DNA of 64,000 nt from Methylosarcina fibrata AML-C10. GTDB taxonomy: Bacteria > Pseudomonadota > Gammaproteobacteria > Methylococcales > Methylomonadaceae. The position numbers were made by a program, and so were the translations under genes. The DNA is taken from assembly GCF_000372865.1 (NCBI RefSeq), contig NZ_KB889965.1, positions 1,996,990 to 2,060,989 on the forward strand, given 5' to 3'. Below are positions 28,094-54,921 of this stretch, piece by piece. The stretch's first letter is position 1; every line of letters begins with the position of its first letter. The notes below the pieces were generated by a model that made no database searches, was not told where the DNA came from, and worked only from the letters and a program-made list of their open reading frames with translations.

Positions 28094-28106
28094 CCGTTGC
28101 TGTCGA

Positions 28107-30846: not shown

Positions 30847-30906
30847 TATGGCCATGTCGTCCTTACTTTTTTAAACTGCCGAAAGGCAATAGACGCTGGC
30901 TTTATC

Positions 30907-37357: not shown

Positions 37358-37405
37358 GGCGGATCTTTATCGGTTAATTGTCGGGATTTACTAAGGATGC
37401 ATCCA

Positions 37406-37817: not shown

Positions 37818-38522
37818 ATGACGACCGCAAAAAGCGAAACGGCTCAGAGCATCTATCTCACACTCCGCAACATGATTCTGAATTTCGAGATTCAGCCGAA
37901 CTCAAGGCTGACCGAAACCGAACTGGCACACTCGTTCAAAGTCAGCCGGACGCCGATCCGGGAAGCCCTGCAGCGCCTGGAAACCGAAGAGCTGATCAGC
38001 ATTCGCCCGAAGCAGGGCTGTTTCGTTCGAGGCATCGACTTCGACGAATTCGCCGATTACTATCAGGTTCGCATCAATCTGGAAATGTTGTCGCTGGAAA
38101 CGGCCTGCCGCAACATGCCGGACGAAGCGTTGAAAAAACTGAGCGAGGTCTGGGAAAACGATGCGGCGGCCGGGGATGCGGGCGATGCCGAGCGCATCGC
38201 CGATCTGGATGAAGCCTTTCATCTCAGACTTGCCGAAGGCGGAGGCAATCGTGTACTGGTCAAGATGCTGAGCGATATCAACAATCGGATTCGCATTGTC
38301 CGGCGTCTGGATTTTACCGATTACGAACGCATCGTCAAAACCTACGAAGAGCATTACAAAATTCTGCAATCGCTGCTCAAGCGGGATGTGGCGACCGCCA
38401 AAAACGACATGATCGAGCACATCAGGAAAAGCGAGGAATTCACCAAAAGGCTGACCTTAATCAATCTCGGCATGCACAAAAACCGCGGCTTTTCTTTTTC
38501 GGACGAGGCCAGATCGGCTTGA
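37818..38522 (+). CDS. GntR-family (FCD) transcriptional regulator
   Basis: A 234-residue repressor or activator: winged helix-turn-helix in 1-75 (LRNMILNFEIQPNSRLTETE, then HSFKVSRTPIREALQRLETE, the recognition helix), and an FCD ligand domain at about 85-215 (LDEAFHLRLAEGGGNRVLVK and EEHYKILQSLLKRDVATAKN, which carry the metal- or ligand-binding Asp/His residues). It is divergent from the first hydrolase and probably controls the surrounding uptake and hydrolysis genes through TTGTATACAA-like sites. The effector would be a carboxylate or a pathway intermediate. Confidence 0.88.
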   Translation: MTTAKSETAQSIYLTLRNMILNFEIQPNSRLTETELAHSFKVSRTPIREALQRLETEELISIRPKQGCFVRGIDFDEFADYYQVRINLEMLSLETACRNMPDEALKKLSEVWENDAAAGDAGDAERIADLDEAFHLRLAEGGGNRVLVKMLSDINNRIRIVRRLDFTDYERIVKTYEEHYKILQSLLKRDVATAKNDMIEHIRKSEEFTKRLTLINLGMHKNRGFSFSDEARSA

Positions 38523-38569
38523 TGCGATAAAGCGCGATTCAGAGCCGCATTACGCCTTAGCCGGCCCCA

Positions 38570-38938
38570 TCATTCGTCCAGAAACTGCACCGGTTTAAGC
38601 CAGTGCGCCAGCACCAGGCAGCCTTCCCGGCTGGACACGCTGTGCTCCGAGCCTTCGGGATTGTATATGTAACTGCCTGCCGGATACAGGCCTCTTTCAT
38701 CCTGCTGCGAACCGGAAAGGACATAGAGGTGCTCGTCGCCGGCATGCCGATGCAAAGGCACCGTAGCACCGGGTTCGTAGCGGATCAGGCCGACCCGGTA
38801 GCCGGAATCGGGATCCTGGAACAACAGGCGGAAATGGACGCCTTCGCGAAGAGAGCTCCAACCTCCCGGCGTATCCAGTATTATTTCGGAGGGAATTGAA
38901 AAAGGCTGTTTCGAGAAAGGCAGGTTCATCGTGTCCAT
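38570..38938 (-). CDS. Cupin (ChrR-like) protein
   Basis: A 122-residue single-domain cupin of the ChrR-like type. Motif 1 is VPLHRHAGDEHLYVLSGS (His, His and Glu metal ligands) and motif 2 is GSYIYNPEGSEHSVSSREG. It is probably a metal-binding enzyme or sensor. Context suggests a role linked to the ABC operon or the hydrolases, since it lies downstream of the allophanate-type gene on the same strand, but substrate is unknown. It converges on the gntR gene. Confidence 0.75.
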   Translation of the reverse strand: MDTMNLPFSKQPFSIPSEIILDTPGGWSSLREGVHFRLLFQDPDSGYRVGLIRYEPGATVPLHRHAGDEHLYVLSGSQQDERGLYPAGSYIYNPEGSEHSVSSREGCLVLAHWLKPVQFLDE

Positions 38939-39003
38939 CGCGAGGGAAATTTACCGGTTTCGGTGCCGGCACGGTCTCGATGAGTCCGGGCGGCTATTGG
39001 TTG

Positions 39004-39027
39004 TCGGGGCGAATTCATTCGCCCCGA
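39004..39027. repeat. Perfect hairpin repeat between two minus-strand genes
   Basis: A ten-base stem TCGGGGCGAA/TTCGCCCCGA encloses the loop TTCA. No T run follows on either strand, so this is more like a dispersed palindromic repeat than a terminator. A degenerate relative, GAATTCATTCACCCCGGGCG, lies near 12203. Confidence 0.55.
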
Positions 39028-39132
39028 AAGGCGTGAAGAAAACAATTCAATTCGGAAGGCTGCATAAAGTAAGGAGACTCGGTCAGATTCCGCGATCGGC
39101 GGCAGCCATCCTCTTTCATAACGGACGACTCT

Positions 39133-39543
39133 TCAGCGCGGCCCGGCGTTTCCGTTCCGGTAGGCGCGCCAGCTTGCGAAACCGGAGATATCGCGGTGGC
39201 GCGGCAATACCGCCTCACGCGGAAACAGGATGCCCCATTCACAGGTTCCGTCGCTCAATTTTACAAGGCCTCGATACAGATTCGGCGGTTCGCCGGCTTC
39301 AATCCGCTGCCAGACCTCCCAAGGCACGTCATAAAGCTCGCCCGCCACCGAAACGCCCCCGTCGGACACTTCATACATGCCGGGATGTATGTCGTCGATC
39401 GAAAAAAGGCGGTAACAGGGCGCCGTGCTGGCCTCGCCGATGAACTTGGCCCCGTCGAGGTTGGCGTGCAAGGCGAATCCGCGCATCAACGTACCGTTGA
39501 CGAACAGAATGAAGGAGTCCGGCCGGTCCGGGAGAGCCGTCAT
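39133..39543 (-). CDS. Stand-alone allophanate hydrolase C-terminal domain-like protein
   Basis: A 136-residue protein resembling the C-terminal gamma-glutamylcyclotransferase-like domain of allophanate hydrolase (AtzF/DUR1): FVNGTLMRGFALHANLDGAK, STAPCYRLFSIDDIHPGMYE, then VAGELYDVPWEVWQRIEAGE and YRGLVKLSDGTCEWGILF. The amidase half that hydrolyses allophanate is not next to it. The C-terminal domain of AtzF converts or removes the product of the amidase step. Here a separate protein may do that for a partner encoded elsewhere. It supports a biuret/allophanate theme for the cluster. Confidence 0.72.
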   Translation of the reverse strand: MTALPDRPDSFILFVNGTLMRGFALHANLDGAKFIGEASTAPCYRLFSIDDIHPGMYEVSDGGVSVAGELYDVPWEVWQRIEAGEPPNLYRGLVKLSDGTCEWGILFPREAVLPRHRDISGFASWRAYRNGNAGPR

Positions 39544-39810
39544 AACCGCACCTTGTGCCGTCCGGCCGGGGCGGCAGGTTCGCTCCTGCGCGGCAACGCC
39601 GATAATGACGGAAACGGACCGAATGACGGCAAAGAAAATGTATTATTCAAGGTCTTTTTCTCCAACAGATTAAGAAACATTCAGGCGCCCTTTCTCCCCA
39701 TCGGCAAAAAATGGGCAAGGCCGGCGGAAAAAACGATCGGAAAGGAAGCCGGAAGCGCTGCTCGTAGCCACCCTGGTACTTCGGGACCAGCCCCGTCTGC
39801 CATTACCCAT

Positions 39811-41370
39811 TCAATGACCGGCCATCCTGAGCCCGATAAGATCCGGATTGGCCAGAGCAGCCGGCGCCTCATACGTCAACCGGCCTTCGAACATCACCGC
39901 GATCCGGTCGCCGAGCATCATCAGTTCGTCGAGATCTTCGCTGATCAACAGGACCGCAGCCCCCAGATTGCGTGCCTCCATCAGTTGCTTTCGAACTTCG
40001 GAAGCGGCGGCGAAATCGAGGCCGAAACAGGGATTGGCCGCCACCAGCAGATCGACCTGACCGGAAAGTTCACGGGCCAGCACCAGCCTCTGGAGATTGC
40101 CGCCGGACAGCGTTTCGACGCGGCGGTTCAGTTCCGGCGGAGACACCCGGAAGCGCTCGATCAAGGACCGGGCATACCGCTGTTGTGCTTTCGCATCGAT
40201 GAACCAGCGCCAGCGGGTGAAGCCGGGCCGGTCGAAAACACGCAGCGCCAGATTTTCGGCCGTGCTCATCCGCGGCACGCAAGCATTGCGAAGAGGGTCT
40301 TCCGGCAGACAGTGGAAACGAAAGCGGACCATATCTTTGCGGGCCGCCGAATACGGCAAACCGTCGATACGGATATCACCCTGTTCCGGCCGGCGCTGGC
40401 CGGACAGCACCTGCACCAGTTCCCGCTGGCCGTTTCCGGATACTCCGGCAATGCCGAGAATTTCACCGCCATGGAGCTTAAGGTTCAAGGACCTGACGGC
40501 CTTCGAACCGTGGTCGGAGAAAGCGGTCAGATTCCTGATCTCGAGCTTGACCGGCCCTTTGCCCGCCTCGGCGCGAGCGGCCATTTTCGCAATGGGTTCG
40601 CGGCCGATCATCAACTCGCCGAGCATGGCCGGGGTTTTACCCGACAAGGGACCGCTATAGACCAGCCTGCCATGCCGGAGCACGGACACCGAGTCGGCAA
40701 AATCGATCACCTCCCGGAACTTGTGGGTGATGATCAAAACGCTCAGCTCGTTGCAACGGGTCCGCGCCTTCAGCATGCCGAGGATTTCGTCGGCTTCCTG
40801 CGGCGTCAACACCGACGTGGGTTCGTCCAGAATCAAGATTTTAGGCCGCAGGAAAAGCTGTTTTAACAGCTCGACCTTCTGCTTTTCGCCCGCGGATAAA
40901 TCAGAGGCTTTTTTATCCAGAGAAATCCGGAACGGAGTTTCGGTCATGAAGGCTTCGAGGTGCTGCCGCTCTTTTTGCCAATGAATCCTTTTTGGAATCG
41001 GCAACCGCGACAACACCAGGTTTTCGAGCACGGTCATGCCCGGCACCAGCGTAAAATGCTGATAGACCATGCCCAGCCCATGACGATGGGCATCGCGCGT
41101 GTGATGGATCTCGCATTCGCGGTTGCCGATCAGCACGGTCCCCCGATCGGCGGCATAATAACCCATGACGCATTTGACCAGGGTGCTTTTACCGGCGCCG
41201 TTACCGCCCAAAAGCGCATGAATCGAACCCTGCCGCAACTTGAACGACACCTCGTCGAGCGCCTGAATCGCTCCGAAACGCTTGCCGAGACCGACCACTT
41301 CGAGCGCCGGCGAGCCGTGTGCAGCCTCCGCTTCCGGCTCCGGCAAACTCCGCACCGAAAGGTTGTTCAC
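39811..41370 (-). CDS. BMP-type ABC transporter ATP-binding protein (two NBDs)
   Basis: A 519-residue duplicated ATPase of the ribose/nucleoside (YufO/RbsA-like) type. First NBD: Walker [12 protein letters not shown], signature [13 protein letters not shown], Walker [11 protein letters not shown]. The second NBD has [36 protein letters not shown] and [16 protein letters not shown]. As in this subfamily, the second site is degenerate. GTG at 41370 overlaps the hydrolase stop (GTGA). It would power import of the substrate bound by the BMP protein. Confidence 0.9.
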
Positions 41371-42047
41371 GACAGAGCCTCGATCAGGCAATCGGACGTC
41401 GACACGGCGCCGAATACGCCTCCCTGCATCCGGATCATCTTTAGGGCTGCCAGATGGTTGCCGTAATCGGTCGCGCCGCAGCAATCCCCGAGCAGCAGGC
41501 ATTCGTAACCGCGATCATTGGCATCGCGCATCGTCGTATGTACGCAGACGTCGGTCGTGATGCCGGTCAGGATCAGATTGTCGATGCCGCGCCGGCGCAA
41601 CAACAGATCCAGATCGGTCGCATAAAACGAACCTTTGCCCGGCTTGTCGACGACGGGCTCGCCGTCCAGCGGCGCCAGTTCCGGGATGATTTCCCAGCCG
41701 GGCTCGCCGCGCACCAGAATGCGCCCGCAAGGCCCGGGATCGCCGATGCCCGCTCCGATCTGCCGGCTGCGCCAGCGCTTGTTGTCCGGAAGATCGGACA
41801 AATCCGGACGATGGCCTTCGCGGGTATGGACGACGTGAAAACCCTGCTCGCGGCAAACGCTCAAAACGCGTCTGATCGGCTCGATCGGCGCACGCGTCAG
41901 CGACAAGTCGTAGCCCATTTTATCGACGTAGCCGCCTTCCCCGCAAAAATCGGTCTGCATGTCGATCACGATCAGACAGGTGTTCTCCGGACGCAAATCG
42001 CCGTTGTAAGGATAAGGATAAGGATCGCTCTTGACGAATCGAGGCAT
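41367..42047 (-). CDS. biuH: Biuret amidohydrolase-like cysteine hydrolase
   Basis: A 226-residue isochorismatase-fold hydrolase. It looks very close to rhizobial Biu[77 protein letters not shown] and [20 protein letters not shown]. The triad Asp29, Lys135, Cys168 sits a constant seven residues before Asp36, Lys142, Cys175 as I recall them for BiuH. Biuret hydrolase yields allophanate and ammonia. Triuret hydrolases belong to the same branch, so the exact substrate is not certain. It is encoded inside the ABC transporter operon, between permease and ATPase. Confidence 0.78.
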
Positions 42048-42056
42048 GGAGTTTAC

Positions 42057-42983
42057 TCACTTGGTAATGGAAAGTTCTTCCGGAATGCCGGACAGGGAAC
42101 GCTCTCTGGAGAAAGTCGCAATCATCAGCATCAAGGTCAATACATAGGGTGCCGCATTGAACAAATAATAGCCGCCGGTAATGCCGACCGACTGCAAGGC
42201 GGGGCCGAGCGCACCGGCGCCGCCGAATAGAAGCGAGGCATACAGGCAGCGCATCGGCTGCCAGCGTGCGAAGACGACCAGTGCCACCGAGATCAAGCCC
42301 TGACCGCTGGACAATCCTTCATTCCAACTGCCCGGATAATGCAGCGACAGAAACGCACCACCGACGCCGGCCAGAAAGCCGCCGGCGACAGTGGCTGCGG
42401 TCCGTACCCGATTGACCGGAAAACCGAGAGCTTCGGCGGCATTGCGGCTGTCGCCCACCGTTCGCACCATCAGTCCCCAGCGGGTATTGGCCAAAAACCA
42501 GGCCAATAGCGGTGCGGCGACAAGACCCAGCAGAAACAGCACGTTGATTTCAAGTGCGGAACGGACGTGCGCGTTCGAACTCCAGTTACCCAACGCAAGC
42601 GCCGGAAGATGCGGCGCAGTCGGCTGAATATACGGCTTGCCTAGAAAAAACGCCACGCCTGTGCCGAACAGCATCAACGCGATCCCCACCGCAATATCGT
42701 TGACTTTCGGCAGGCTGCACAGCCAGGCATGAATCAGTCCGAGCACCATGCCGGTACTGCCTGCCGCCAGCACGCCGAGCCAGGGCAAGCCGCTCGAATA
42801 CGACACGGCATAGGCCGACATCGCGCCGAGAACCAGATTGCCTTCGAGTCCGAGATTGATGCGGCCGCTCTTTTCGGTCAGACACTCGCCGAGACTGACG
42901 AACAAATACGGGGTGCCGGCCCGGATCGCCCCGGCCAGCACGGCAAGCAGTACGCCCCATCCGCCCAAGGCGTCTTCGTTCAC
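42057..42983 (-). CDS. BMP-type ABC transporter permease, second subunit
   Basis: A 308-residue BPD_transp_2-type permease of the YufQ kind: GTPYLFVSLGECLTEKSGRI, NLGLEGNLVLGAMSAYAVSY, INVLFLLGLVAAPLLAWFLA, then GFPVNRVRTAATVAGGFLAG and GLSSGQGLISVALVVFARW. About eight to nine helices. It overlaps the first permease gene by 4 bases and precedes the biuret-hydrolase-like gene by 9 bases. Confidence 0.9.
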   Translation of the reverse strand: MNEDALGGWGVLLAVLAGAIRAGTPYLFVSLGECLTEKSGRINLGLEGNLVLGAMSAYAVSYSSGLPWLGVLAAGSTGMVLGLIHAWLCSLPKVNDIAVGIALMLFGTGVAFFLGKPYIQPTAPHLPALALGNWSSNAHVRSALEINVLFLLGLVAAPLLAWFLANTRWGLMVRTVGDSRNAAEALGFPVNRVRTAATVAGGFLAGVGGAFLSLHYPGSWNEGLSSGQGLISVALVVFARWQPMRCLYASLLFGGAGALGPALQSVGITGGYYLFNAAPYVLTLMLMIATFSRERSLSGIPEELSITK

Positions 42984-44038
42984 TCCGGCCTCCGGTTTTC
43001 ATGCCATGCCGGCAAACGGCCGTACCAGGTTTCGCCAAGCAATATGGCCATGAACAGCACGCTCTGCAGGATCAGTATGGCCGCATCGGGCAACTGATGG
43101 GTGCGCTGCAGCAGGCCGGCACTGGCCGAGATGCCGCCCAGAAGCAGGGAAACAGGGATCACCGCCAGGGAATTCTGCCGGGCCAGAAACGCCACCAGAA
43201 TGCCCGCATAACCGTATCCTGCGGCCAGCGACGCGTTCGCGGTACCGTGGATCGCAGCCACTTCGATGCCTCCGGCCAGGCCTGCGGCGGCGCCGGCGCA
43301 AAAACAGACAGCCACGGTCAGCCATCCGACCGGAAGCCCGACGACCCTGGCCGCGCGAAGATTGCCGCCGGCGACTCGAACGGCAAAGCCGAAAGTCGTC
43401 TTCCGGAACAGCAGATAGCAAGCAAGGCACAGCGCCACGCCGTAAAACAGTCCCCAGTGCACGCCCAGGCCCGGAATGTCGCCCAGCATGTGGGCACTGC
43501 CGATCGGCCGTGTCGAGGGCTTGTTCAGACTTTCTGGATCGCGTAGGGGCCCTGTGACCAGATGATTCATCAGCGCAATCGCAATATAGTTGAACAACAG
43601 GCTGGTAATGGTTTCGTTCATGCCTCGGCAGTGTTTCAGCCAGCCGACGAGAGCAATCCAGAGCCCGCCCGAGAGCAGCCCGGACGTCAGCACCGCCGTC
43701 AGCGCAAGCCAGGGGGGCTGACTGCCGAAAGCCAAGCCGGCCACGGCCGCGCAAACGCCACCGATCACCACGGCCCCTTCACCGCCGATCATGATCAGGC
43801 CCAGTTGCGCCGGCAAGGCGGTGCACAAGGCCGTCAGCATCAACGGCACCGCCCGCTCCAGGGTATTGCGCCAGGAAAAGCCGCTGCCGAAACCACCCCG
43901 GTAAATGGTATGAAAGACTTCCAGAGGATTGTTGCCGACGCAAAGCATAAAGGTTCCGAACGCCATCAGCCCCAGAACCAACGCTCCCACGGGAATCAGC
44001 AAGTTTTCCATGGCTGCAAGCCAAGCCGACGTTTTCAT
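42980..44038 (-). CDS. BMP-type ABC transporter permease, first subunit
   Basis: A 352-residue BPD_transp_2-type permease of the YufP kind with about nine helices: LMLTALCTALPAQLGLIMIG, GEGAVVIGGVCAAVAGLAFG, RGMNETITSLLFNYIAIALM (the coupling-loop region) and TTFGFAVRVAGGNLRAARVV. It starts 2 bases after the binding-protein gene. Together with the other permease it forms the membrane channel. Confidence 0.9.
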   Translation of the reverse strand: MKTSAWLAAMENLLIPVGALVLGLMAFGTFMLCVGNNPLEVFHTIYRGGFGSGFSWRNTLERAVPLMLTALCTALPAQLGLIMIGGEGAVVIGGVCAAVAGLAFGSQPPWLALTAVLTSGLLSGGLWIALVGWLKHCRGMNETITSLLFNYIAIALMNHLVTGPLRDPESLNKPSTRPIGSAHMLGDIPGLGVHWGLFYGVALCLACYLLFRKTTFGFAVRVAGGNLRAARVVGLPVGWLTVAVCFCAGAAAGLAGGIEVAAIHGTANASLAAGYGYAGILVAFLARQNSLAVIPVSLLLGGISASAGLLQRTHQLPDAAILILQSVLFMAILLGETWYGRLPAWHENRRPE

Positions 44039-44040
44039 GG

Positions 44041-45171
44041 TCAGGAGCCGGTGCTGCCGATGACGCCGGCCACCAGATAATCCATCGACTCCAGTTTGAT
44101 GTCGGTCTGCGGCAACGCTTGCCCTGGCGGAATCACGACGTTGCCTTTGTTGTCCTTCAACTCGCCCTTGTAGATGACCATCTCGCCGGCCATGAACTTC
44201 GCTTTTGCGGCTTCGGCCTTAGCGATCGTTTCGGCGCTGACCGCCGGGCCGTATCTGGAGTTTTTGACGATGCCTTCCTTGATGCCGCCCCGCAGCAGAT
44301 GCGGAAACGGTTTGCCTGCCTGGAGCCGCTTGACGAAATCGGTATAGACCTTCGGCCAGTTCCATTCCGCACCGGTCAGATAACCCTTCGGCGCCAGTTC
44401 GGCTTGATCGGCGTGATAGCCGCTCGAATAAATGCCGCGGCGCTCGCAGATCTCGATGATGACTTTCGGGCTGTCGACGTGCATCGTGATCACGTCGACG
44501 CCCTGATCGATCAGGCTGTTCGCCGCTTCGGCCTCTTTGACCGGCATGGCCCAGTCGCCGGTGAAGATCACCTGCGTGGTGATTTTCGGATTCACGCTTT
44601 GCGCGCCCAGAGTGAACGAATTGACGTTGCGCAGCACCTGCGGGATCGGCTTGGCGGCAATGAAGCCGAGCTTGCCGGTTTTCGAAGTGCCGCCGGCGAC
44701 AATGCCGGCGACGTATTGCGCTTCGTCGATGTAACCGAAGTAACTGCCGGCGTTGGCCGGGTGCCTGCCTTCCTGATAGAGCCCTCCGGCATGCAGAAAG
44801 GTGGTGCCGGAATATTTTGGCGCCACCGCCAGCACGTGCGGATCGTAATATCCGAACGAGGTCGGAAAGATCAGCCTGGCGCCGTCCAGATTGATCATGC
44901 TTTCCATCGAATTCTGCACCGCAATCGTCTCCGGCACGTTCTCCTCCTCGATTACCTTGACTCCGGGCATCGCCTTGACTGCGGCCGCCCCCTGGGCATG
45001 GGCCTGGTTGTAACCGTAGTCGGCCCTGGATCCGACGTAGATGAATCCGACCACAACGTCGTCCCCGGCACGCGCCGGAAAAATCATCGCCAAAGCGATG
45101 ATCAAGGCCGGCGGAAATCCGCGCATGATGCGCAGAAGAAAGGCAAACGGCGTGGTATCGGTGCTAGTCAT
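44041..45171 (-). CDS. BMP-family ABC transporter substrate-binding protein
   Basis: A 376-residue periplasmic binding protein of the basic membrane protein (Bmp/Med) family with a signal peptide ending IFPARA. Family motifs are VVVGFIYVGSRADYGYNQAH, ESMINLDGARLIFPTSFGYY, YIDEAQYVAGIVAGGTSKTG, VDVITMHVDSPKVIIEICER and GPAVSAETIAKAEAAKAKFM. Bmp proteins usually bind nucleosides or related compounds. With a biuret-hydrolase-like enzyme in the same operon, a ureido or pyrimidine-derived compound is a reasonable guess. First gene of the operon. Confidence 0.9.
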   Translation of the reverse strand: MTSTDTTPFAFLLRIMRGFPPALIIALAMIFPARAGDDVVVGFIYVGSRADYGYNQAHAQGAAAVKAMPGVKVIEEENVPETIAVQNSMESMINLDGARLIFPTSFGYYDPHVLAVAPKYSGTTFLHAGGLYQEGRHPANAGSYFGYIDEAQYVAGIVAGGTSKTGKLGFIAAKPIPQVLRNVNSFTLGAQSVNPKITTQVIFTGDWAMPVKEAEAANSLIDQGVDVITMHVDSPKVIIEICERRGIYSSGYHADQAELAPKGYLTGAEWNWPKVYTDFVKRLQAGKPFPHLLRGGIKEGIVKNSRYGPAVSAETIAKAEAAKAKFMAGEMVIYKGELKDNKGNVVIPPGQALPQTDIKLESMDYLVAGVIGSTGS

Positions 45172-46063
45172 GGCTTACCTCAAATAAAAGAAAATTAACG
45201 GATCGTCGGCGCAAGGCGGCCCCTTCCGGGAAGAGCCCTCACCTTGCGGCCTGCAACGTTTCAGCGCAAAAATAACACCGGCTTTTTCAGGTCACGGCAA
45301 TACCGGAAACGAGTGCATACTTTGTTGTATGCAACAGATTATGCATGATCGGTGCCATGTTTGAAGGCTTGTTTTCGCTCTTTTTTCATAGCGAAAAAAC
45401 AAAAAATAAAATAAAGAGTTATACGATTAATGAAGGTTAAAGCAGTTAAAAAATCACGAGCCCGGTTTTGAAAATAAGCCTCTATAATGGTGCGATAACC
45501 GATGTATTTGCACCGATTTTGTGCATTCAGAAGAAATAAAGTCTTCCGGGGCATCAGCCGATTGGAATGATCATTTTCTTATCAAAAACCCGGTTAACCA
45601 GGAAATCAAAAACCTCCGGAATCCCCGCATACCAAACCCTTGATGCTCAACCCATGAATCAGAGGTTTCCGCAAGAATGCTCCGCCTGAGCCCCTCGGAA
45701 AATTCCGTTTAGGCTTCGGCTCGTTTTATACCGTTCGCTTTTAATTGCAGGTTCTTCCCGACGCATCGGGAGGAGTCGGAGGCAACATGGCGGCAGGATT
45801 CTTGCATGCCAGTGGACGGCTGAGTCATGGTCTGACGGAGAAAATACGGTAGAGCACGCACCGCGCACTTTCTTTAATAGAACTTTAATGAAATACATTG
45901 CGTAACCCAGGATATTCAGGAGGTTACGAAGCGTATCGGCTCCGGACAGTCCGCCGCGTCCTGCAAAAAACCGGCCGAGACAGGCTTTGCGAACATCCTG
46001 AAGCCTGGAAACTCGTTCCATGACTCTGCGCGTTGCGCAAGATCAATATGACTTTTATTACCG
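45172..46063. other. Long divergent control region between the ABC operon and the kinase gene
   Basis: Nearly 900 bases with no gene I can support. Short minus-strand frames at 45339-45554 and 45659-46021 lack family features. The left part contains the GntR-type motif and a TGCAC/GTGCA inverted repeat around 45509-45525. Length and divergence suggest several promoters and regulator sites. Confidence 0.5.
45314..45334 (+). promoter_or_regulatory. GntR-type operator candidate upstream of the BMP operon
   Basis: TGCATAC (45314-45320) and GTATGCA (45327-45333) form a perfect inverted repeat with a six-base spacer. CTTTGTTGTATGCA (45320-45333) repeats the motif found at 37406-37419, with one purine change. 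It lies about 145 bases before the binding-protein start. Confidence 0.55.
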
Positions 46064-49000
46064 GTGATTCCGATTATGAAGCTTGGCATTTTCCAGAACA
46101 TCTCCAAAATCCGCAGAGACTACAATACCTGGGTCGCCGACGAAACCATGGAAGATTATGCCTTGCGTTTCGCACCGCGCAGTTTCCGGAGGTGGTCGGA
46201 GTTTCAGGTAGCCAACACCGCCTTCGGTTCGACTTCGTTTCTGGTACTCGAAGCCATCGGCGGCTTTTTATCGATCAATTACGGCTTCACCAACGCCTGC
46301 TGGGCCATTCTGGCGGTAGCGGCGGTCATCTTCATCACCAGCCTGCCGATCAGCTATTACGCAGCCCGCTACAACATCGACATCGACCTATTGACCCGCA
46401 GCGCCGGATTCGGCTATCTCGGCTCCACCGTGACCTCCCTGATCTATGCCTCCTTTACCTTCATCCTGTTCGCGATGGAAGCCTCGATCATGTCGCTGGC
46501 CCTGGAGTTGTATTTCAGGATTCCCCTCGCTTACGCCCACGTCATCAGCGCGCTTGCCGTCATCCCTTTGGTCACCTTCGGCATCACGACGATCAGCCGT
46601 CTGCAATTATGGACCCAACCGCTCTGGCTGCTGCTGCTGATCGTTCCCTATCTGGCGGTCCTGAACCGGGAGCCCGAAGCCGTTCCCATTCTGAAAACCT
46701 ACTGGTGGATCGCCAGCCACGGCGAAGGCTTCGACTGGCTGTTGTTCGGCAGCGCCACCACCGTGGCCTTTTCGATGATGGCGCAGATAGGAGAGCAGGT
46801 CGATTTTCTGAGGTTCATGCCCGAAAAGAAAAAGTCCAATAGAGGACGCTGGTGGCTGGCGATGCTGGCGGGAGGGCCCGGCTGGATCTTCTTCGGCATG
46901 GCCCGGCAACTGGCCGGAGCGTTGCTCGCTCATTTGGCCATACGGCACGGCATTCCGGCCGCCCATGCCCACGAACCGACCCAGATGTACCTGACCGCGT
47001 ACACCGAACTGTTCGATGACGCGAGGCCGGCGCTTGCCGTCACCACCCTGTTCGTCGTGCTCAGCCAGATCAAGATCAACGTCACCAACGCCTATGCCGG
47101 CTCCCTGGCCTGGTCCAATTTTTTTTCGCGGTTGACGCACAGCCATCCGGGCCGCGTCATCTGGCTGCTGTTCAACGTGTTGATCGCGCTGCTGCTGATG
47201 GAATTCGGCGTGTTCGGCGCGCTGGAAAAAATTCTGGGCCTGTTTTCGCACATGTCGATCGCCTGGATCAGCGCGGTCGCCGCCGAACTGATGATCAACA
47301 AACCGCTGGGCCTCAGTCCGAAAACCGTCGAATTCAAACGCGCTTATCTGCCCGATCTGAACCCGGTCGGCATCGTCTCGACATTGTCCGCCTCGATCGT
47401 TTCCATTTTGGCGTATACCGGCCTGTTCGGCAGCTATGCCCAGGCTTTTTCGGGATTTATCGCGCTGGTCCTGACCTTCGTGCTGACGCCTTCGATCGCC
47501 TGGTGGTTCGGCCCCAAACCCCACATCGTTCGCGACCGCAGAAAAAACAACCGCACACAGAACGACAAATGCTGCATCTGCGAAAACGAGTTCGAACACG
47601 AAGACATTGCCTTCTGTCCGGCGTACGCCGGCAGTATCTGTTCGCTGTGCTGCACTCTGGACGCCCGTTGTTTCGATGCCTGTAAACCGGGCTCGACCCT
47701 TCACGACTATCTGGAATCCCTGGCGCGGCATTTGCTTCCATCCCGTCTTTCGCTGTCATTGAAGCTACGCCTGCTCCGCTTTACCATGCTGTTCCTGTTC
47801 CTATCGGTCCTGACCGGCATCTTCGTCGGCATCATCTATTACGAGGATTTACTGGCGGTTTCCCGCAATCCCTTCGTTTATTACCTCCTGCTGGAAAACT
47901 TCATCAAAACCTATACTTCGATGCTGGTCTTCATCGGCCTGTGCACCTGGTGGCTGATCCTGAACGACGAAAGCCGGCGCATCGCTCATCATGAAACCGC
48001 CCGACAGACGCAGACCCTGCTGACCGAAATCGAGGAACACAAGAAAACCGACGCCAAACTACAACAGGCGCTCATTATGGCCGACAGCGCCAACAGCGCC
48101 AAAAGCCGCTTTCTCAGCAACATGAGCCATGAAATTCGCACGCCGTTAAACAGCATCATCGGTTACGCGCACATCCTCGACAACGATCCGGCCATTCCCG
48201 AGCACAGGCTGCAGGCGGTGAAGACCATGAAGCGCAGCAGCGAACATCTGTCGGCGCTGATCGAGGACATTCTCGACATCGCCCGTATCGAAGCTCGCAA
48301 GTTCGAGCTGAGATCCATGCCGATCCACTTTCCGGTATTCATCGACCATCTGGTGCACATATTCAAGGCTCAGGCCGAAGAAAAAGGGCTGGCTTTTCAT
48401 TGTCGGTTTACCAACACGTTGCCCCGGCGCGTTCGCGGCGACGAAAAAAGGATCGGCCAGATTCTGATCAATCTGCTGAACAATGCCGTAAAATTTACTT
48501 CTTCCGGGGAAATCATTTTCCGTATCGGCTACAGCGGCGGCGTCGGCAATTTCCAGATCACCGACACCGGCATCGGCATCGACGAAGAGCATCTGCAGAC
48601 CATTTTTCAACCGTTCACGCGGCTCGGTACGGCGGCCGGAAACGCCGTCGCCGGCAGCGGCCTGGGTCTGACCATCAGCAAGATTCTGGCCGAAATCATG
48701 GGCGGCGAACTCAGCGTCAAAAGCGTGCCGGGTCAAGGTTCAACCTTTACCGTACGTCTGTTTCTGCCCAGCCTCGGCGCCGGCTCGGCTGAGATCCGGG
48801 AAGACAACGTCACAGGCTACCGGGGGCCGAGACGGAACATTCTAATTGTTGACGATCAGCCGGACCATCGGCAATTGCTGCTGTCCCTGCTGGAACCTTT
48901 GGGTTTCTATCTTTCGGAAGCCTGCTCCGGCGAAGAGTGCCTGCTCAAGGTCGACGACTGTGTTCCCGACCTGATTCTGCTGGACCTGTCGATGACCGGC

Positions 49001-49477
49001 ATCGGCGGCACCGAAACAGCCGAGCAATTACGCCGGAAAGGCTATTCGAAGCCCATCATCGTGCTGAGCGCCAATGCCTATCCGTCCGACCGCCTGGCGG
49101 CGATCAAGGCCGGCTGCAACGATTTTCTGGCCAAGCCGATACAAATTCAGGAGCTGTACTACAAACTGAAATCGACTCTGGATCTTGACTGGATCGGTCA
49201 GGAAGCCCCTATGCAGAACACCGCCGCAGCCAGTAAAATAGCCGATACGCGGCCGCCGCAGGAGGTCGTCGACAAACTCGTCGAATTCATTCGCATCGGT
49301 GATCTGATGGGGTTGAACCGGCAGCTCGACGAAGCCGGCCTCAACCGTCCGGACTATCTGCCTTTCCTGCTGAAGATCAGGCAATTGGCCGGCGAATTCC
49401 GCATCGCGGAGATTAAAAACCTGCTTATGGCGGACGCCCTGAACAGGCCAAACCAAGCGAGACCATCCGATGAGTGA
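46064..49477 (+). CDS. NCS1 permease-histidine kinase fusion, hybrid sensor
   Basis: A 1,137-residue membrane protein. Residues about 20-490 match an NCS1 purine/pyrimidine permease (RFAPRSFRRWSEFQVANTAF, SAGFGYLGSTVTSLIYASFT, GPGWIFFGMARQLAGALLAH), with about twelve helices. A Cys-rich stretch follows at about 503-540 (CCICENE, ICSLCCTLDARCFDACK), then two further helices near 565-590 and 615-640. Then come the kinase parts: His689 in the H-box NMSHEIRTPLNS, the ATPase boxes DEKRIGQILINLLNNAVKF and ITDTGIGIDEEH, GSGLGLTIS, and a receiver with phospho-Asp974 (PDLILLDLSMTG). It probably senses a nucleobase-like compound through the transporter fold. Start GTG 46064; ATG 46076 is the alternative. 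It overlaps the regulator gene by 8 bases. Confidence 0.88.
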   Translation: MIPIMKLGIFQNISKIRRDYNTWVADETMEDYALRFAPRSFRRWSEFQVANTAFGSTSFLVLEAIGGFLSINYGFTNACWAILAVAAVIFITSLPISYYAARYNIDIDLLTRSAGFGYLGSTVTSLIYASFTFILFAMEASIMSLALELYFRIPLAYAHVISALAVIPLVTFGITTISRLQLWTQPLWLLLLIVPYLAVLNREPEAVPILKTYWWIASHGEGFDWLLFGSATTVAFSMMAQIGEQVDFLRFMPEKKKSNRGRWWLAMLAGGPGWIFFGMARQLAGALLAHLAIRHGIPAAHAHEPTQMYLTAYTELFDDARPALAVTTLFVVLSQIKINVTNAYAGSLAWSNFFSRLTHSHPGRVIWLLFNVLIALLLMEFGVFGALEKILGLFSHMSIAWISAVAAELMINKPLGLSPKTVEFKRAYLPDLNPVGIVSTLSASIVSILAYTGLFGSYAQAFSGFIALVLTFVLTPSIAWWFGPKPHIVRDRRKNNRTQNDKCCICENEFEHEDIAFCPAYAGSICSLCCTLDARCFDACKPGSTLHDYLESLARHLLPSRLSLSLKLRLLRFTMLFLFLSVLTGIFVGIIYYEDLLAVSRNPFVYYLLLENFIKTYTSMLVFIGLCTWWLILNDESRRIAHHETARQTQTLLTEIEEHKKTDAKLQQALIMADSANSAKSRFLSNMSHEIRTPLNSIIGYAHILDNDPAIPEHRLQAVKTMKRSSEHLSALIEDILDIARIEARKFELRSMPIHFPVFIDHLVHIFKAQAEEKGLAFHCRFTNTLPRRVRGDEKRIGQILINLLNNAVKFTSSGEIIFRIGYSGGVGNFQITDTGIGIDEEHLQTIFQPFTRLGTAAGNAVAGSGLGLTISKILAEIMGGELSVKSVPGQGSTFTVRLFLPSLGAGSAEIREDNVTGYRGPRRNILIVDDQPDHRQLLLSLLEPLGFYLSEACSGEECLLKVDDCVPDLILLDLSMTGIGGTETAEQLRRKGYSKPIIVLSANAYPSDRLAAIKAGCNDFLAKPIQIQELYYKLKSTLDLDWIGQEAPMQNTAAASKIADTRPPQEVVDKLVEFIRIGDLMGLNRQLDEAGLNRPDYLPFLLKIRQLAGEFRIAEIKNLLMADALNRPNQARPSDE

Positions 49478-50402
49478 TGACAATCGATCGATGAACGGCA
49501 CGGTGATGATTGTGGATGACACGCCGGGCAATCTGGCGCTTTTGTCCGACACCCTGTCGGATGCCCGTTACCGGGTGCTGGTGGCTACCGACGGGCTCTC
49601 GGCCATCGAACAGATCCAATATCTGAAGCCCGACATTATTTTAATGGACGTGGTCATGCCGGGAATAGACGGCTTCGAAACCTGCCGCCGCATCAAGGCG
49701 GAACCGGCCACGGCGGGCATTCCCATCTTGTTCATGACCGGCTTGAGCGAACTCGATCATTTATTGCAGGGATTCGGCGAAGGCGGCCTGGATTACATCA
49801 TCAAACCCATTCGCCCGCCCGAGGTGTTGGCCCGAATCGAAGTCCACCTGACCCAGTCGCGCAATCTCCAGCGCGCACAGCAGGCCCTGCAGCAAAGCGC
49901 CTATTCCGCCCTGGCGGTCGGCCGCTTGGGCGGCATTGCCTGGCTGACGCCGTCGGCCGAGGCATGGCTGCACGATTTCATGCGGCATTACGCCTCCGAA
50001 CAGCCCATCCGCATCGGCGGCCTTTTACCCTCTCCGTTGCTGGAATGGTTCCGGCAGCGCCTCTCCGATGGCGGCCAAAACGCCGAGGAATGTTTCGAGC
50101 ATTACCGGTCGAGCAGCGGTTTTACCGTAAAAATGACGCATTGCCATCATCTGGACGAATATCTGCTGCTCCTGCAAAAGGAATCGACTCAATGGAATCT
50201 GGAGTCGCTGAGGGAGTCCCTGAAACTCACGTTCCGGGAGGCGGAAATACTGATGTGGATTGCGCGCGGCAAAACCAACAAGGAAGTCGGCCTGATTCTG
50301 GGCAGCAGCCCCAGAACGATCAACAAGCATCTGGAACACATCTTCGAAAAACTCGGCGTGGCCACGCGGGCGGCGGCCGTCGCCATGGTGCTGCAACGCT
50401 GA
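49470..50402 (+). CDS. Response regulator with LuxR-type DNA-binding domain
   Basis: A 310-residue regulator. The receiver (about 10-130) has Asp16/Asp17 in VMIVDDTPGN, phospho-Asp60 in PDIILMDVVMPG and the switch Lys in DYIIKPIRPPEV. A middle segment of unknown fold follows, then a LuxR helix-turn-helix at about 245-305 (LTFREAEILMWIARGKTNKE, then SSPRTINKHLEHIFEKLGVA). It overlaps the kinase gene by 8 bases and is surely its partner. Likely targets are the divergent ABC/hydrolase operon and itself. Confidence 0.9.
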   Translation: MSDDNRSMNGTVMIVDDTPGNLALLSDTLSDARYRVLVATDGLSAIEQIQYLKPDIILMDVVMPGIDGFETCRRIKAEPATAGIPILFMTGLSELDHLLQGFGEGGLDYIIKPIRPPEVLARIEVHLTQSRNLQRAQQALQQSAYSALAVGRLGGIAWLTPSAEAWLHDFMRHYASEQPIRIGGLLPSPLLEWFRQRLSDGGQNAEECFEHYRSSSGFTVKMTHCHHLDEYLLLLQKESTQWNLESLRESLKLTFREAEILMWIARGKTNKEVGLILGSSPRTINKHLEHIFEKLGVATRAAAVAMVLQR

Positions 50403-50630: not shown

Positions 50631-52106
50631 TCAGGGCCGCGGCGGCCGCCGTTTTTTCACCACTTGCGTGACCGCGGCGCTGGTGCTCGGCGCGTTGTTG
50701 GCGTCGCCGCTGTAGACCGCAGTGATGCTGTGCGTGCCGGCCACCAGACGAGGCGTGGACAAGGACGCGACCGCGTTTCTGAGCGGCCGGGAACCGAGGC
50801 TGGTGCTGCCGACGAAGAATTCGACCGTGCCGGTCGGGCTGTTGCCGGTTACCGTCGCGGTAAAGGTGACCGATTGGCCGACGGTCGACGGATTCAGGCT
50901 GGACGTCAGCGAGGTCGTCGTGGCCTGAGTTTCCGTCAAACGAAAAATGATACCGCCGTTATAAGTGCCACCCCCGGAAGTGGTGCCGTAGAGACTGCCG
51001 TCGTCAGCCTGAACCAGTCCGACAATGGATGTTCCGGCGGGATCATCGGCATCAAACTCGTACAGGATGCTGTAGTTCCAGGAAGGATCCAGCTTAAACA
51101 CGATGCCGATGCCGCTATCAGCGGAAGAATAAGTCGTGCCATAAAAATTGCTGTCCGAACCCTGGATCAGCAAGGAGAGATACGGAATGGTCGCGGCATC
51201 GGGCTGGTACAAAACGGTCGCGGTTCCGGACGATTCGAGCCTATACACCCAATTGGCGCCGATACCGTAGATGTTGCTGTTGCCGACTCCGTAGATGTTG
51301 CCGTCGCTGCCTTGGAATAGCCGAGTCGGATAGGGATCGTCGGGATTTCCCTGGTTGTATTGATTGCTTACTAAAAAATAATGCAGAACACTGTAATTCC
51401 AGGCAGGATCGATTTTGAACACTAGATGATCGATGTCGTAGCTGAGCTGTCCTCCGGTAACGCCATAGAAACTGCCGTCGCTGGCTTGAACCAGTTCCGA
51501 AGCCGGACAGAAGTCATACTCCCCCGACGTGCCGAAGCTGTGCAGTACGGTAAGATTCCCGGATAAATCGATTCTGTAAAACGTCCCGCCGCTATTGCCT
51601 CCACCGCAAGTGGCGCCATAAAATTTGCCGTCGGAACCCAGAGTCAATCCGCCGGAAGGGTCATAACCGGCATCACTACCAGGGCTAAACGTATACAATA
51701 CGCTGAAATTTCCGGATAAACTCAATTTAAACAATGTTGCATTTGAATTGCTGTTTCCCTTTGTGACACCATATAAGCTGCCGTCGCTGCCGAACACCAA
51801 TGTTGCATAGGGATTGACTCCATCGCTGCCGCCTTCGAACTCGTACAATACGGAATAATTTCCGGACGCATCGATCTTGAACACCGTACCGACCCCGTGG
51901 CTGCCGCCGTAGAGCGTCGTTCCGTAAAAATTGCCGGCCGCATCCTGAATCAGGGCACCGGTCGGTTTGCCGTCCTGCGTGCCCAGCGATTTCAGTACCT
52001 CGAAATCAACCGCCGCTCCGGCCGTCGGAGCCAGGAATATGCCCGCCAGCACCAGCCAGATCAAAAATATGAAATAAAACGTTTGCATCGAAGAATGGTT
52101 TTTCAT
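50631..52106 (-). CDS. Secreted GloVer-repeat protein with C-terminal Ig-like domain (shorter copy)
   Basis: A 491-residue exported protein with a signal peptide (about 1-32, ending GAAVD). It has seven copies of the GloVer-type repeat (TIGR03803), each with a G-x-LYGT core: NFYGTTLYGG, SLYGVTKGN, KFYGATCGGG, SFYGVTGGQ, NIYGVGNSN, NFYGTTYSS, SLYGTTSGGG. These predict a beta-propeller or beta-solenoid. An Ig-like domain (about 395-480) starts TTTSLTSSLNPSTVGQSVTF. The C-terminus is basic (KKRRPPRP) where the frame runs out of an A6 tract. The Ig part is nearly identical to the larger paralogue. Adhesion or surface function is likely but unproven. Confidence 0.8.
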   Translation of the reverse strand: MKNHSSMQTFYFIFLIWLVLAGIFLAPTAGAAVDFEVLKSLGTQDGKPTGALIQDAAGNFYGTTLYGGSHGVGTVFKIDASGNYSVLYEFEGGSDGVNPYATLVFGSDGSLYGVTKGNSNSNATLFKLSLSGNFSVLYTFSPGSDAGYDPSGGLTLGSDGKFYGATCGGGNSGGTFYRIDLSGNLTVLHSFGTSGEYDFCPASELVQASDGSFYGVTGGQLSYDIDHLVFKIDPAWNYSVLHYFLVSNQYNQGNPDDPYPTRLFQGSDGNIYGVGNSNIYGIGANWVYRLESSGTATVLYQPDAATIPYLSLLIQGSDSNFYGTTYSSADSGIGIVFKLDPSWNYSILYEFDADDPAGTSIVGLVQADDGSLYGTTSGGGTYNGGIIFRLTETQATTTSLTSSLNPSTVGQSVTFTATVTGNSPTGTVEFFVGSTSLGSRPLRNAVASLSTPRLVAGTHSITAVYSGDANNAPSTSAAVTQVVKKRRPPRP

Positions 52107-52380: not shown

Positions 52381-54921
52381 TCAGGGCCGCGGCGGCCGCC
52401 GTTTTTTCACCACTTGCGTGACCGCGGCGCTGGTGCTCGGCGCGTTGTTGGCATCGCCGCCGTAGACCGCGGTGATGCTGTGCGTGCCGGCTATCAGCCT
52501 CGGCGTGGACAAGGCCGCGGCCCCGTTGCCGAGCGGACGGGAACCCAGGCTGGCGCTGCCGACGAAGAACTCGACCGTGCCGGTGGGACTGTTGCCGGTT
52601 ACCGTCGCGGTAAAGGTAACCGATTGGCCGGCGACCGACGGGTTCAGGCTGGAGGTCAGCGTGGTCGTCGTGGCCTGGGTGGTTCCCGTCAAACGAAAAA
52701 TGACGCCACTGTTATAAACGACGCCGCCGTTATATGTGCTGCCCGAAGTGGTGCCGTAGAAACTGCCGTCACCGGCTTGAAGCAGTGCCGCGACGCTGCC
52801 GCCTCCATCGTCAAGATCGAAATGGTGCAACGCGCTGAAGTTTCCCGATCCGTCGAGCCGGTAGACGGTTCCGTAACCGTTAACGCCGCCGGTTGACGTC
52901 GTACCGTAAAAATTGCCGTCTTTGCCCTGGATCACGCCATGCGGATTTCCGCCGTCGTCGCTGCCGTTGAACTGGTAGATAATACTGAAATTGCCCTTGG
53001 AGTCGATCCGGAATACGGCGCCTTTCCTTGGTCCGCCCAGCGCGTCGTCGCCGCCCTCGATGACGGTACCGTAGAATTTTCCGTCGCTGCCCCGGATCAA
53101 CTCGGCATCGGGAGAAGAACCGCCGAGCCCGCCTTCGAAATGGTGCAAAATGCTGAAATTTCCGGACGCGGTGAGTTTGAACACGGTCCCATGGCTGTAA
53201 TTGCCGCCCAAAAGGGTCGTACCGTAAAAAGTGCCGTCCGTGCCCCGAAGCAGCCCGGCATAAGGACTATTGCCGCCCGCCGCGCCGTCGAAATCATGGA
53301 GAACGCTGAAAACTCCCGCCGGGGTCAGTTTGTAGACCGTGCCCGCATTGTTGGCGCCGCCAAAGCGCGTGGTGCCGTACAAATTGCCGCGGCTGTCCCG
53401 GATGAGTCCGGCTTCGGGGTTCGCTCCTCCGCTGCCTCCTTCGAAATCGTGAAGAATGCTGAACATTCCGGATGCATCCAGTTTGAAGATCGTTCCGGCG
53501 CTGTAGTTGCCACCATAAGTGGTAGTTCCGTAAAAGTTGCCCGACGAATCCTGCAAGAGCCGGGCATGGGGCGAGGAGCCTTCGCTGCCGTCGAAACTGT
53601 GCACTATTTCTGTGTTCCCGGCCGAATCGATCCGGTAAACGGTACCCGAACCGTTATCGCCGCCCTCGGAATTGGTGCCGTAAAAATTGCCGTCTTTGCC
53701 CCGGATCAGTTCGGCCAGAGGCACCGTGCCGGCCTCGTCGAATGAGCCGAACGAATAGACCACGCTGACGGTTCCGGTTGAATCGATCCTGAAAACAACG
53801 CCTTCGCCAAAACTGCCTCCGTTGACGGCGGTGCCGTAGAAACTGCCGTCGCCGTACTGTACCAACGGAGCGTAGGGATTGGCCCCGGTGATCGTGTCGA
53901 AAGAATGAAGAACGTTAAAGTCTCCGGATGGACTGATTCTGTAGACGATGCCCAGACCGTCGATGCCGCCCGCGGTCGTGGTGCCGTAAAAATTGCCGTC
54001 GCTGCCTTGAATGAGCCCGGCCGCGGGCGCCTTACCGCCGTCGCCGCCGTCGAATTCGTGCAGCACGCTGAAGGTGCCGGACGGATCGATTTTGTAAAGG
54101 ATTCCGGCGTCGTTGGCGCCGCCCGCAAAAGTGGCGCCGTACAAACTGCCGTCGCTGGTTTGCAGCAGTTTTGATTGCTCATAGTAGCCGCTGTCAAATT
54201 CGTGCAAGATGCTGAAATTACCTGACGGATCGAGCTTGAACACCGTTCCCGCACCGCTGTTATCGCTGTTGGCCGTCGTCCCGTAAAAACTGCCGTCGCT
54301 GCCTTGAATCAGCTCCGAGTTGGGACCTCCACATTGTCCCGGAAATTCATAGACGACGCTGTAGTTTCCGGCAGAGTCTATTTTATAGATCGTTCCCGAG
54401 CGGTTTTCTGGAACGCAATCGGACGATGCGCCGTAGAAGTTGCCGTCGATGCCTTTGATCAAGCCGCCCGCGGTCGTGATAAAACCGCCCTCGAAAGCGT
54501 GCAGAAGAATGAAATTTCCGGATGCGTCGATTTTGTAAGCCGTGGCGGTATAATCTCCGGTAAACTGAGGCGTGGTACCGTAAAGACTGCCGTCGCCGCC
54601 AAGCACCACGCCGGCCATGGGACGGCCGATGCTGCCGGCACTAAAATTGAATAGCACGCTGACGTTTCCGCCCGGATCGATCTTGAACACCGTGCCGGCG
54701 TTGCCTTTCGTGCCGTCGCCGCCGGCTAACGCTGTGCCGTAGAGATTGCCCGCGCCATCGAGCGTCAATCCCGCGTAAGGATTGCCGCCTGCCTTGCCCA
54801 GGACTTTCAGCACCTGAAACTCGGCGGATGCGGCGGCTTCCCGCGCCGGGAACAGCCACGGAACGGCCAGCCAGGCCAGCAATAAATAGAGAATCGTGCG
54901 ATTAGCCCAATAAGATTTCAT
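52381..54921 (-). CDS. Secreted GloVer-repeat protein with C-terminal Ig-like domain (longer copy)
   Basis: An 846-residue exported protein with a signal peptide ending AREAAAS. It has fourteen GloVer-type repeats (LYGT/FYGT cores such as NLYGTALAGG, SFYGTTANS, SLYGATFAGG, NFYGTTTYGG, NLYGTTRFGG, KFYGTVIEGG), twice the number in the paralogue at 50631-52106. A C-terminal Ig-like domain starts TTTTLTSSLNPSVAGQSVTF. Repeats tile residues about 40-740. The same A6 tract and KKRRPPRP end occur. It lies 274 bases upstream of the shorter copy, pointing to local duplication. Surface display is probable. Confidence 0.8.
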   Translation of the reverse strand: MKSYWANRTILYLLLAWLAVPWLFPAREAAASAEFQVLKVLGKAGGNPYAGLTLDGAGNLYGTALAGGDGTKGNAGTVFKIDPGGNVSVLFNFSAGSIGRPMAGVVLGGDGSLYGTTPQFTGDYTATAYKIDASGNFILLHAFEGGFITTAGGLIKGIDGNFYGASSDCVPENRSGTIYKIDSAGNYSVVYEFPGQCGGPNSELIQGSDGSFYGTTANSDNSGAGTVFKLDPSGNFSILHEFDSGYYEQSKLLQTSDGSLYGATFAGGANDAGILYKIDPSGTFSVLHEFDGGDGGKAPAAGLIQGSDGNFYGTTTAGGIDGLGIVYRISPSGDFNVLHSFDTITGANPYAPLVQYGDGSFYGTAVNGGSFGEGVVFRIDSTGTVSVVYSFGSFDEAGTVPLAELIRGKDGNFYGTNSEGGDNGSGTVYRIDSAGNTEIVHSFDGSEGSSPHARLLQDSSGNFYGTTTYGGNYSAGTIFKLDASGMFSILHDFEGGSGGANPEAGLIRDSRGNLYGTTRFGGANNAGTVYKLTPAGVFSVLHDFDGAAGGNSPYAGLLRGTDGTFYGTTLLGGNYSHGTVFKLTASGNFSILHHFEGGLGGSSPDAELIRGSDGKFYGTVIEGGDDALGGPRKGAVFRIDSKGNFSIIYQFNGSDDGGNPHGVIQGKDGNFYGTTSTGGVNGYGTVYRLDGSGNFSALHHFDLDDGGGSVAALLQAGDGSFYGTTSGSTYNGGVVYNSGVIFRLTGTTQATTTTLTSSLNPSVAGQSVTFTATVTGNSPTGTVEFFVGSASLGSRPLGNGAAALSTPRLIAGTHSITAVYGGDANNAPSTSAAVTQVVKKRRPPRP

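Follow-up and report, generated by a model that had tools for sequence, protein, structure and literature searches.

The fusion gene and its relatives

We analysed a stretch of 64,000 nucleotides from Methylosarcina fibrata AML-C10 (contig NZ_KB889965.1, positions 1,996,990 to 2,060,989; hereafter the window), focusing on a gene that joins a permease-like domain to a hybrid histidine kinase and on the LuxR/NarL-type response regulator gene that overlaps its end by 8 bases (49470-49477; Table 1). Open reading frame calls, Pfam and a fold model confirmed the frame, the length and the domain order given in the initial annotation (permease, linker with about nine cysteines, two helices, HisKA, HATPase, receiver), as well as the 8-base overlap. 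The frame opens with GTG ATT CCG ATT ATG AAG, and since relatives mostly align from residue 1-12 and an in-frame ATG is present, ATG 46076 (1133 aa) is a likelier start than GTG 46064. Kinase and receiver residues are intact, with H689 and D974 each found in 80 of 81 full-length rows; with its HisKA histidine, HATPase_c domain, receiver aspartate and partner receiver-HTH protein, the fusion qualifies as a hybrid histidine kinase.

Table 1. Features of the window, with the fusion gene and its parts first (positions are those of the window)
Feature	Position	Strand	Remarks
Permease-kinase fusion open reading frame	46064-49477	+	1137 aa from GTG; Pfam and fold model
Permease-like domain, residues 30-486	46151-47521	+	AlphaFold2 model, Foldseek, VIA-align; LeuT-type fold
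Cys-rich segment, residues 503-540	47570-47683	+	nine Cys, eight conserved; possible metal-binding module
Two extra helices, residues 564-598 and 603 to ~640	47753-47983	+	second continues towards HisKA
HisKA, residues 679-744	48098-48295	+	Pfam; phospho-acceptor His689
HATPase_c, residues 792-901	48437-48766	+	Pfam
Receiver (Response_reg), residues 926-1034	48839-49165	+	Pfam; Asp974
LuxR/NarL-type response regulator	49470-50402	+	310 aa; Pfam Response_reg 12-123, GerE 253-307
Predicted operator, tandem double palindrome	30816-30849	.	between porin-urtABCDE and p30841; 47.4 bits
p30841	30841-31707	+	no Pfam/NCBIfam match; likely start near 30907; precedes kinase gene in relatives
Porin-like outer-membrane protein	29448-30728	-	ExtI model match, under its cut-off
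UrtA	28107-29414	-	over NCBIfam cut-off
UrtB	26368-28158	-	N-terminal extension
UrtC	25276-26364	-
UrtD	24458-25699	-	core from residue 172 of frame
UrtE	23676-24461	-
Urease alpha subunit (ureC)	19861-21564	-
UreG	18145-18753	-
Biuret/triuret island	34914-45171	-	between p30841 and kinase gene
Permease-like, 533 aa	34914-36515	-	no Pfam/NCBIfam match; 85-88% identical beside BiuH-like genes in L013, L015, L016, L018, L071
Second BiuH-like hydrolase	36686-37357	-	263.9 bits, below BiuH cut-off; TrtA candidate
GntR-type regulator gene	37818-38522	+	inside biuret island
AH_C (allophanate hydrolase C-terminal domain)	39133-39543	-	101 bits; own frame, without amidase domain
ABC ATPase	39811-41502	-
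BiuH	41367-42047	-	NF050097, 420.8 bits against cut-off 370
Permeases	42057-44038	-
BMP protein	44041-45171	-	BMP-type ABC transporter; divergent from kinase gene

Relatives of the fusion were found at every rank searched. A contig pattern search gave 270 hits, 262 of which encode a relative, and 80 were kept, with titles naming Methylococcales or proteobacterial bins. Methylotuvimicrobium buryatense 5G carries an orthologue (L036). The first 579 residues were matched in 87 of 151 same-family genomes, the whole protein in 18 of 369 class genomes (E <= 1e-100), and the first 509 residues at 57 places in 52 of 398 phylum genomes (E <= 1e-40); all 57 places have frames of at least 894 codons, one with an internal stop. 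An assembly join of two genes, the artefact against which the initial annotation had cautioned, is excluded by these long open frames of matching relatives in many genomes. Moreover, matches to the first 579 residues occur in 529 plasmid records (519 covering at least 80% of that length; 342 named Klebsiella), and a few of the plasmid matches listed are stand-alone permeases. The NCS1-like domain is also found with another kinase: at L190 and L191, next to fmdA/fmdB, it is fused to one of non-hybrid type, the frames measuring 894 and 899 residues from stop to stop.

Fold and conserved residues of the permease-like domain

Pfam scans of the N-terminal part of the fusion (~490 residues), whole and cut, returned no family above cut-off. 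The NCS1 family model PF02133 matched neither the fusion protein nor any protein of its whole genome, and matched only one of the 20 members of alignment A2 (8.6e-8). The sole lead from sequence was a weak match to the NCBIfam model of the cytosine permease CodB (E = 2.5e-5, 23.2 bits against a cut-off of 326); blastp of CodB against the fusion reached only E = 0.13, and sequence searches of the PDB, profiles included, gave no relative. An AlphaFold2 model of residues 1-662, built from 42 sequences (predicted TM-score 0.71, mean predicted local distance difference test score (pLDDT) 73.5), was closest among solved folds to CodB (Z = 33.6, root-mean-square deviation 3.4 over 395 residues) and Mhp1 (Z = 28.7, 4.0 over 422), the next scoring 24.5. 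The SLC5 sialic acid symporter (5nva) scored lower than CodB (Z = 22.0), and no SSS family model was matched by Pfam. Because the predicted fold is nearest to CodB and Mhp1 but the family model is unmatched, we describe the domain as NCS1-like without assigning it to the NCS1 family; the "NCS1 permease domain" of the initial annotation thus stands as to the predicted fold and the weak CodB match, and falls as to PF02133.

We then compared binding residues with those described in the available text on CodB (PMC9379551). In a MAFFT alignment that used a Pantoea permease as a bridge, transmembrane helix 8 (TM8) is free of gaps, and Thr278 and Thr279, reported there as Na+ ligands of CodB, fall on Lys337 and Ile338 of the fusion. 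Both residues are invariant in 81 of 81 full-length rows, Lys337 also recurs in 20 of 20 members of A2, and the Pantoea permease has Arg-Ile at this position. Since the Na+-binding threonines align with an invariant Lys-Ile pair, the domain is predicted to be Na+-independent. Similarly, CodB Gln105 and Trp108 align with Thr132 and Leu135. These replacements bear on the idea, suggested by the NCS1 name, of a nucleobase transporter or sensor: CodB and Mhp1 are indeed the closest folds, but in this alignment both the substrate- and the Na+-site residues differ, and no nucleobase gene was noticed in the annotated plasmid neighbourhoods. We regard a nucleobase role as highly improbable and set it aside because the neighbours are urea and amide genes. 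Six further residues, E63, E139, Q241, E244, Q245 and D247, are invariant in all 81 full-length rows and could line a pocket for a small amide; E63 is not kept in the stand-alone relatives.

Of the nine cysteines that follow the permease-like domain, eight are conserved in 87 or more of the 89 family rows, counted after removal of the near-identical copies L001 and L082-L111. Part of the pattern is also present in stand-alone permease relatives, so the beginning of the Cys-rich segment may predate the fusion. Modelled together with its helical hairpin, the segment came out at low confidence (block means of ~41-59 pLDDT across its first 60 residues), and in this Cys-rich linker Pfam found no family above cut-off with which to match the STAC domain of known transporter-kinase fusions.

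Neighbouring genes and a shared palindrome

Urt, FmdA, AmiE or urease genes adjoin the fusion in 53 of 55 phylum-wide loci (L146-L200, that is, the 57 places minus the window's own and G257, which is the same as L141). By content, 18 of these loci hold Urt, Fmd and AmiE genes, 17 Urt and Fmd, 7 urease only, 5 Urt only, 4 Urt and urease, 2 Fmd only and 2 none; the last two stop at a contig end (L163, still with the start of urtA, and L200, 4.8 kb). UrtA, FmdA, AmiE, urease and BiuH were found in 0 of 20 random regions of the same genomes, five of which gave weak ABC-ATPase or regulator matches. On annotated plasmids the neighbours of the fusion-regulator pair are either urease genes or urtABCDE together with a formamidase or amidase gene, the latter set mostly in divergent orientation; an S. 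meliloti record carried no annotation. When at least 35% identity was required, 11 of 18 loci of the class sample were linked, and of 80 Methylococcales loci 44 had urea or amide genes and a further 5 had BiuH-type genes only. In relatives such as L004, L008, L013, L017, L020, L037 and L046, the porin and UrtA genes lie on one side, with p30841, kinase and regulator running in the opposite direction. The stand-alone permease relatives adjoin fmdA-fmdB-amiE (L127) or urease (L143), which suggests the same ligand class without a kinase. A conserved linkage to hydrolase and transporter genes, on which the initial annotation had staked its case, therefore exists, although the genes are those of urea and short amides and mostly not of biuret.

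An expectation-maximisation (EM) palindrome search was run on 55 UrtA- or UreA-divergent intergenic regions, 49 after near-copy removal; one training region (L131) is the locus of a paralogue within the family to which the window belongs. The search returned ATACGTcAatTgACGTAT with a log-likelihood ratio of 450.8, against 49.9 and 39.1 in two shuffled sets, which were given 25 restarts compared with 60 for the data; the palindrome that recurs near fusion loci is ATACGTCANNTGACGTAT. Sites of at least 14 bits occur in 49 of 55 kinase-side intergenic regions, a count that is partly circular because the 18-bp matrix was trained on 49 of those 55, and in none of 398,020 control bases (2 sites of at least 9 bits).

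Independent tests of the motif came from sites outside these regions, from Methylococcales regions, from the window's own genome and from a table of 151 genomes. Across L146-L200 (1,055,903 bases) there are 57 sites of at least 14 bits, 43 within kinase-side regions and 14 outside that the EM search had not seen; 13 of the 14 lie 20-139 bases upstream of fmdA or urtA (9 at 89-139 bases, and 4 at 20-98 bases from extrapolated gene starts) and one lies inside urtA. In the 31 Methylococcales regions outside the training set, each at least 1026 bases long, the best site always falls within 225 bases of the porin/fmdA end. A tandem double site, described by an expression composed after these sites had been viewed, is present in 28 of the 31 regions; L028, L068 and L072 do not fit. 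In the window, the next-best place for a double site scores -8.0 bits against the 47.4 of the predicted operator, and the double-site pattern was absent from shuffles of the window. With up to 3 mismatches, CGTCANNTGACTNATCAGTCANNTGACGTAT occurs at one place on both strands of the 4,978,464-base genome (reversed-pattern control, 0). This place adjoins porin-urtABCDE, ~15 kb from the kinase gene.

Of the 151 family genomes, 71 carry a looser form of the double site (the reversed control gave 0 in every row), namely 70 of the 77 with an orthologue of the fusion and 1 of the 74 without. Ten genomes whose only match has at most 63% identity were set apart as paralogue-only, and none of them carries the double site. 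Among the 76 genomes with UrtA over its cut-off, the double site is found in 65 of 71 with the orthologue and 0 of 5 without it (Fisher test, P = 1e-33 for the 151 genomes and 2.5e-5 for the 76, values that ignore relatedness). Where a genome has several sites, the one closest to urtA was used; its distance from urtA is 1430-2122 bases in 59 of 59 genomes with both positions listed. In 24 of the 59 genomes the fusion is more than 15 kb off or on another contig; the six same-contig distances are 15,245 (the window's own), 16,606, 33,888, 85,684, 1,347,366 and 1,469,987 bases. The site thus tracks the urea operon, and whether a genome has the kinase gene, more closely than it tracks where that gene lies.

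As a separate observation, the plasmid fusion at L121 (Klebsiella pneumoniae pKPN3-307_typeB) is divergent from urtABCDE-formamidase, and a palindrome of 23.9 bits lies in the gap. The incomplete gene table gives no response regulator after the fusion, which is followed by an IS5 element.

The kinase gene of the window is directly divergent from a BMP/biuret-type operon, as the initial annotation had noted, and BiuH lies over its NCBIfam cut-off. BiuH or BiuH-like genes also occur near the kinase in L013, L015, L016, L018, L057 and L071, and in L015, L016 and L018 the kinase gene has a double site immediately before it. These facts favour the first reading of the pair, in which a transceptor responsive to biuret, a ureide or a pyrimidine product governs the operon divergent from it. 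Against this, no site was found in the BMP/kinase intergenic region of the window (45172-46100; the top scores are 3.7 bits over 18 bp and -11.4 bits over 34 bp), so the motif scan gave no support to a kinase serving the biuret operon. The sole genomic copy is at porin-urtABCDE, and the island carries its own GntR-type regulator gene. In a kinase tree made by a quick method, with long-branch warnings and with L016, L018 and L071 left out, the nearest kinase belongs to L013, whose urea operon has stayed divergent; no single clade unites the four biuret-linked kinases, which need 3 changes (35 of 500 shuffles were as low). Since the relatives' pair is mostly linked to genes for uptake and hydrolysis of urea and short amides, a pyrimidine or ureide ligand is not supported either, and we consider control of the biuret operon quite unlikely. 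The best reading of the arrangement is that the biuret island is a separate module, lying between p30841 and the kinase gene, which adjoin each other in relatives. Its second BiuH-like enzyme may be the triuret hydrolase TrtA, because TrtA is known to cluster with biuH (available text of PMC7948467).

Other genes of the window are noted for completeness. The N-terminal extension of UrtB comprises ~300 residues with a weak HEAT-repeat match. For the porin-like gene, identity as ExtI was rejected since the match falls under the cut-off of the model. The protein p30841 is a possible exported partner of the sensor. Beyond the regulator gene, 50631-52106 and 52381-54921 (minus strand) encode two proteins of GloVer repeats (TIGR03803) with a C-terminal Big_3_5 domain.

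Proposed role and known systems

We propose that the fusion is probably a transceptor-like kinase for urea or a short amide whose regulator controls urea uptake, with the biuret island as a separate neighbour. The NCS1-like LeuT-fold domain would bind urea and, in other members, perhaps short-chain amides; its movement would pass through the Cys-rich segment and the two-helix hairpin, as the anatomy of the protein suggests, to HisKA and HATPase. By standard two-component logic, the kinase with its attached receiver would signal to the co-encoded LuxR-type regulator, which, judging from the distribution of the sites, may bind the palindrome ATACGTCANNTGACGTAT. In the window, the regulator would act at the predicted operator on porin-urtABCDE, perhaps on the downstream urease genes of the same strand, and on p30841.

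Several observations weigh against this proposal. Co-occurrence is the sole tie between motif and regulator, and seven orthologue-bearing genomes lack the pattern while one orthologue-free genome has it. The five UrtA-positive, fusion-negative genomes come from two genera, and relatives are not independent; most of the "unlinked" fusions are on another contig of a draft assembly and need not be far away. Fit to the motif is worse in UreA-divergent regions (L141, -13.0 bits; L155, -4.2; L167, 11.6), and single Methylococcales sites are often weak under the 18-bp matrix (3.6-22.6 bits, 10 of 31 below 9). The window's kinase gene has no operator copy of its own, yet L015, L016 and L018 have one, as described above. 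No urea, amide or biuret gene is seen at 7 of the 18 class loci and at 31 of the 80 Methylococcales loci; 20 of these 31 have at most ~5.5 kb upstream, but the other 11 have ~9 kb or more. Pfam found no Hpt domain for a classical phosphorelay in the C-terminal part of the fusion, and the rest of the genome could hold one. Finally, a profile aligner places TM8 otherwise, with gaps and with Lys337 against Asn275; because of this disagreement we treat the equivalence of Lys337/Ile338 to the Na+ site as an inference.

Alternatively, the kinase might sense an internal nitrogen or carbon signal, its permease part being a transporter or a relic, or the palindrome might belong to another regulator. 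CbrA offers a precedent, as the available text of PMC8871633 reports kinase activity in the absence of the SLC5 domain, as well as an internal signal of unidentified nature. On the other side, the double site tracks the orthologue over 151 genomes even where the genes are not close, and the invariance of the six candidate pocket residues in 81 of 81 full-length rows is unlike a decaying domain. We judge this alternative unlikely and keep to the urea or short-amide sensor.

In a wider claim, which we hold at slightly better than even, the fusions form a class of transporter-derived receptor kinases that is widespread but has not been described before. An NCS1-like receptor for urea and short-chain amides, in which Lys replaces a Na+-binding Thr, would then act through a regulator of LuxR type and a single conserved palindrome at the promoters of urt and fmd, as a dedicated switch for urea and amide use in many Proteobacteria, Klebsiella plasmid copies included. 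Among open-licence full texts, no paper on a kinase with an NCS1 or cytosine-permease domain, or on a two-component sensor of urea or biuret, was recognised by title or abstract. If the claim is true, it offers a candidate urea/amide sensor with a testable DNA target for many Proteobacteria, both in methane oxidisers and on Klebsiella plasmids.

Methylophilus methylotrophus reportedly has an Fmd porin and transport inducible by amides and urea. The stand-alone relatives L122 (Streptomyces plasmid, annotated as allantoin permease), L143 and L127 are 42, 43 and 54% identical in A2 and share the TM8 Lys-Ile-Asn and part of the Cys pattern with the fusion, and an Arthrobacter plasmid relative annotated as hypothetical is 41.6% identical; none of them has a kinase. 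CodB and Mhp1, the NCS1 transporters with the nearest solved folds, differ in their Pfam NCS1 match, in their substrate- and Na+-site residues and in lacking an attached kinase. Table 4 of PMC2907700, as far as available, lists for Dechloromonas aromatica a 1131-aa histidine kinase and a 308-aa receiver protein with UrtA adjacent; sizes and order are similar to those of the fusion pair, and although the label reads just 'histidine kinase', we infer from size and place that it is the same fusion.

Characterised transporter-kinase fusions are few, and all those in the literature found are of the SLC5 kind. Like the present fusion, the SLC5/STAC kinases CbrA, CrbS and RpuS combine, within a single polypeptide, a transporter domain of LeuT fold with a linker and a histidine kinase. 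The Na+ site offers a further parallel: the residues of the PutP Na+ site are not conserved in CbrA (PMC8871633, available text), and a Lys occupies the site in the CbrA structure (PMC13022988, available text), just as Lys337 aligns with CodB Thr278. In contrast to the SLC5/STAC kinases, the fusion has a predicted fold nearest to NCS1, a Cys-rich segment and a two-helix hairpin at the place of the linker, no PAS match by Pfam and an attached receiver. Its partner is LuxR-type, whereas CbrB, the partner of CbrA, is NtrC-type (PMC8871633, available text). The initial annotation's view of a permease-kinase fusion with its own LuxR-type regulator, analogous to CbrA, is thus supported: the fusion varies the CbrA theme with a transporter domain whose predicted fold is another one, and a second type of fusion of this kind would suggest that receptors have arisen from nutrient transporters more than once.

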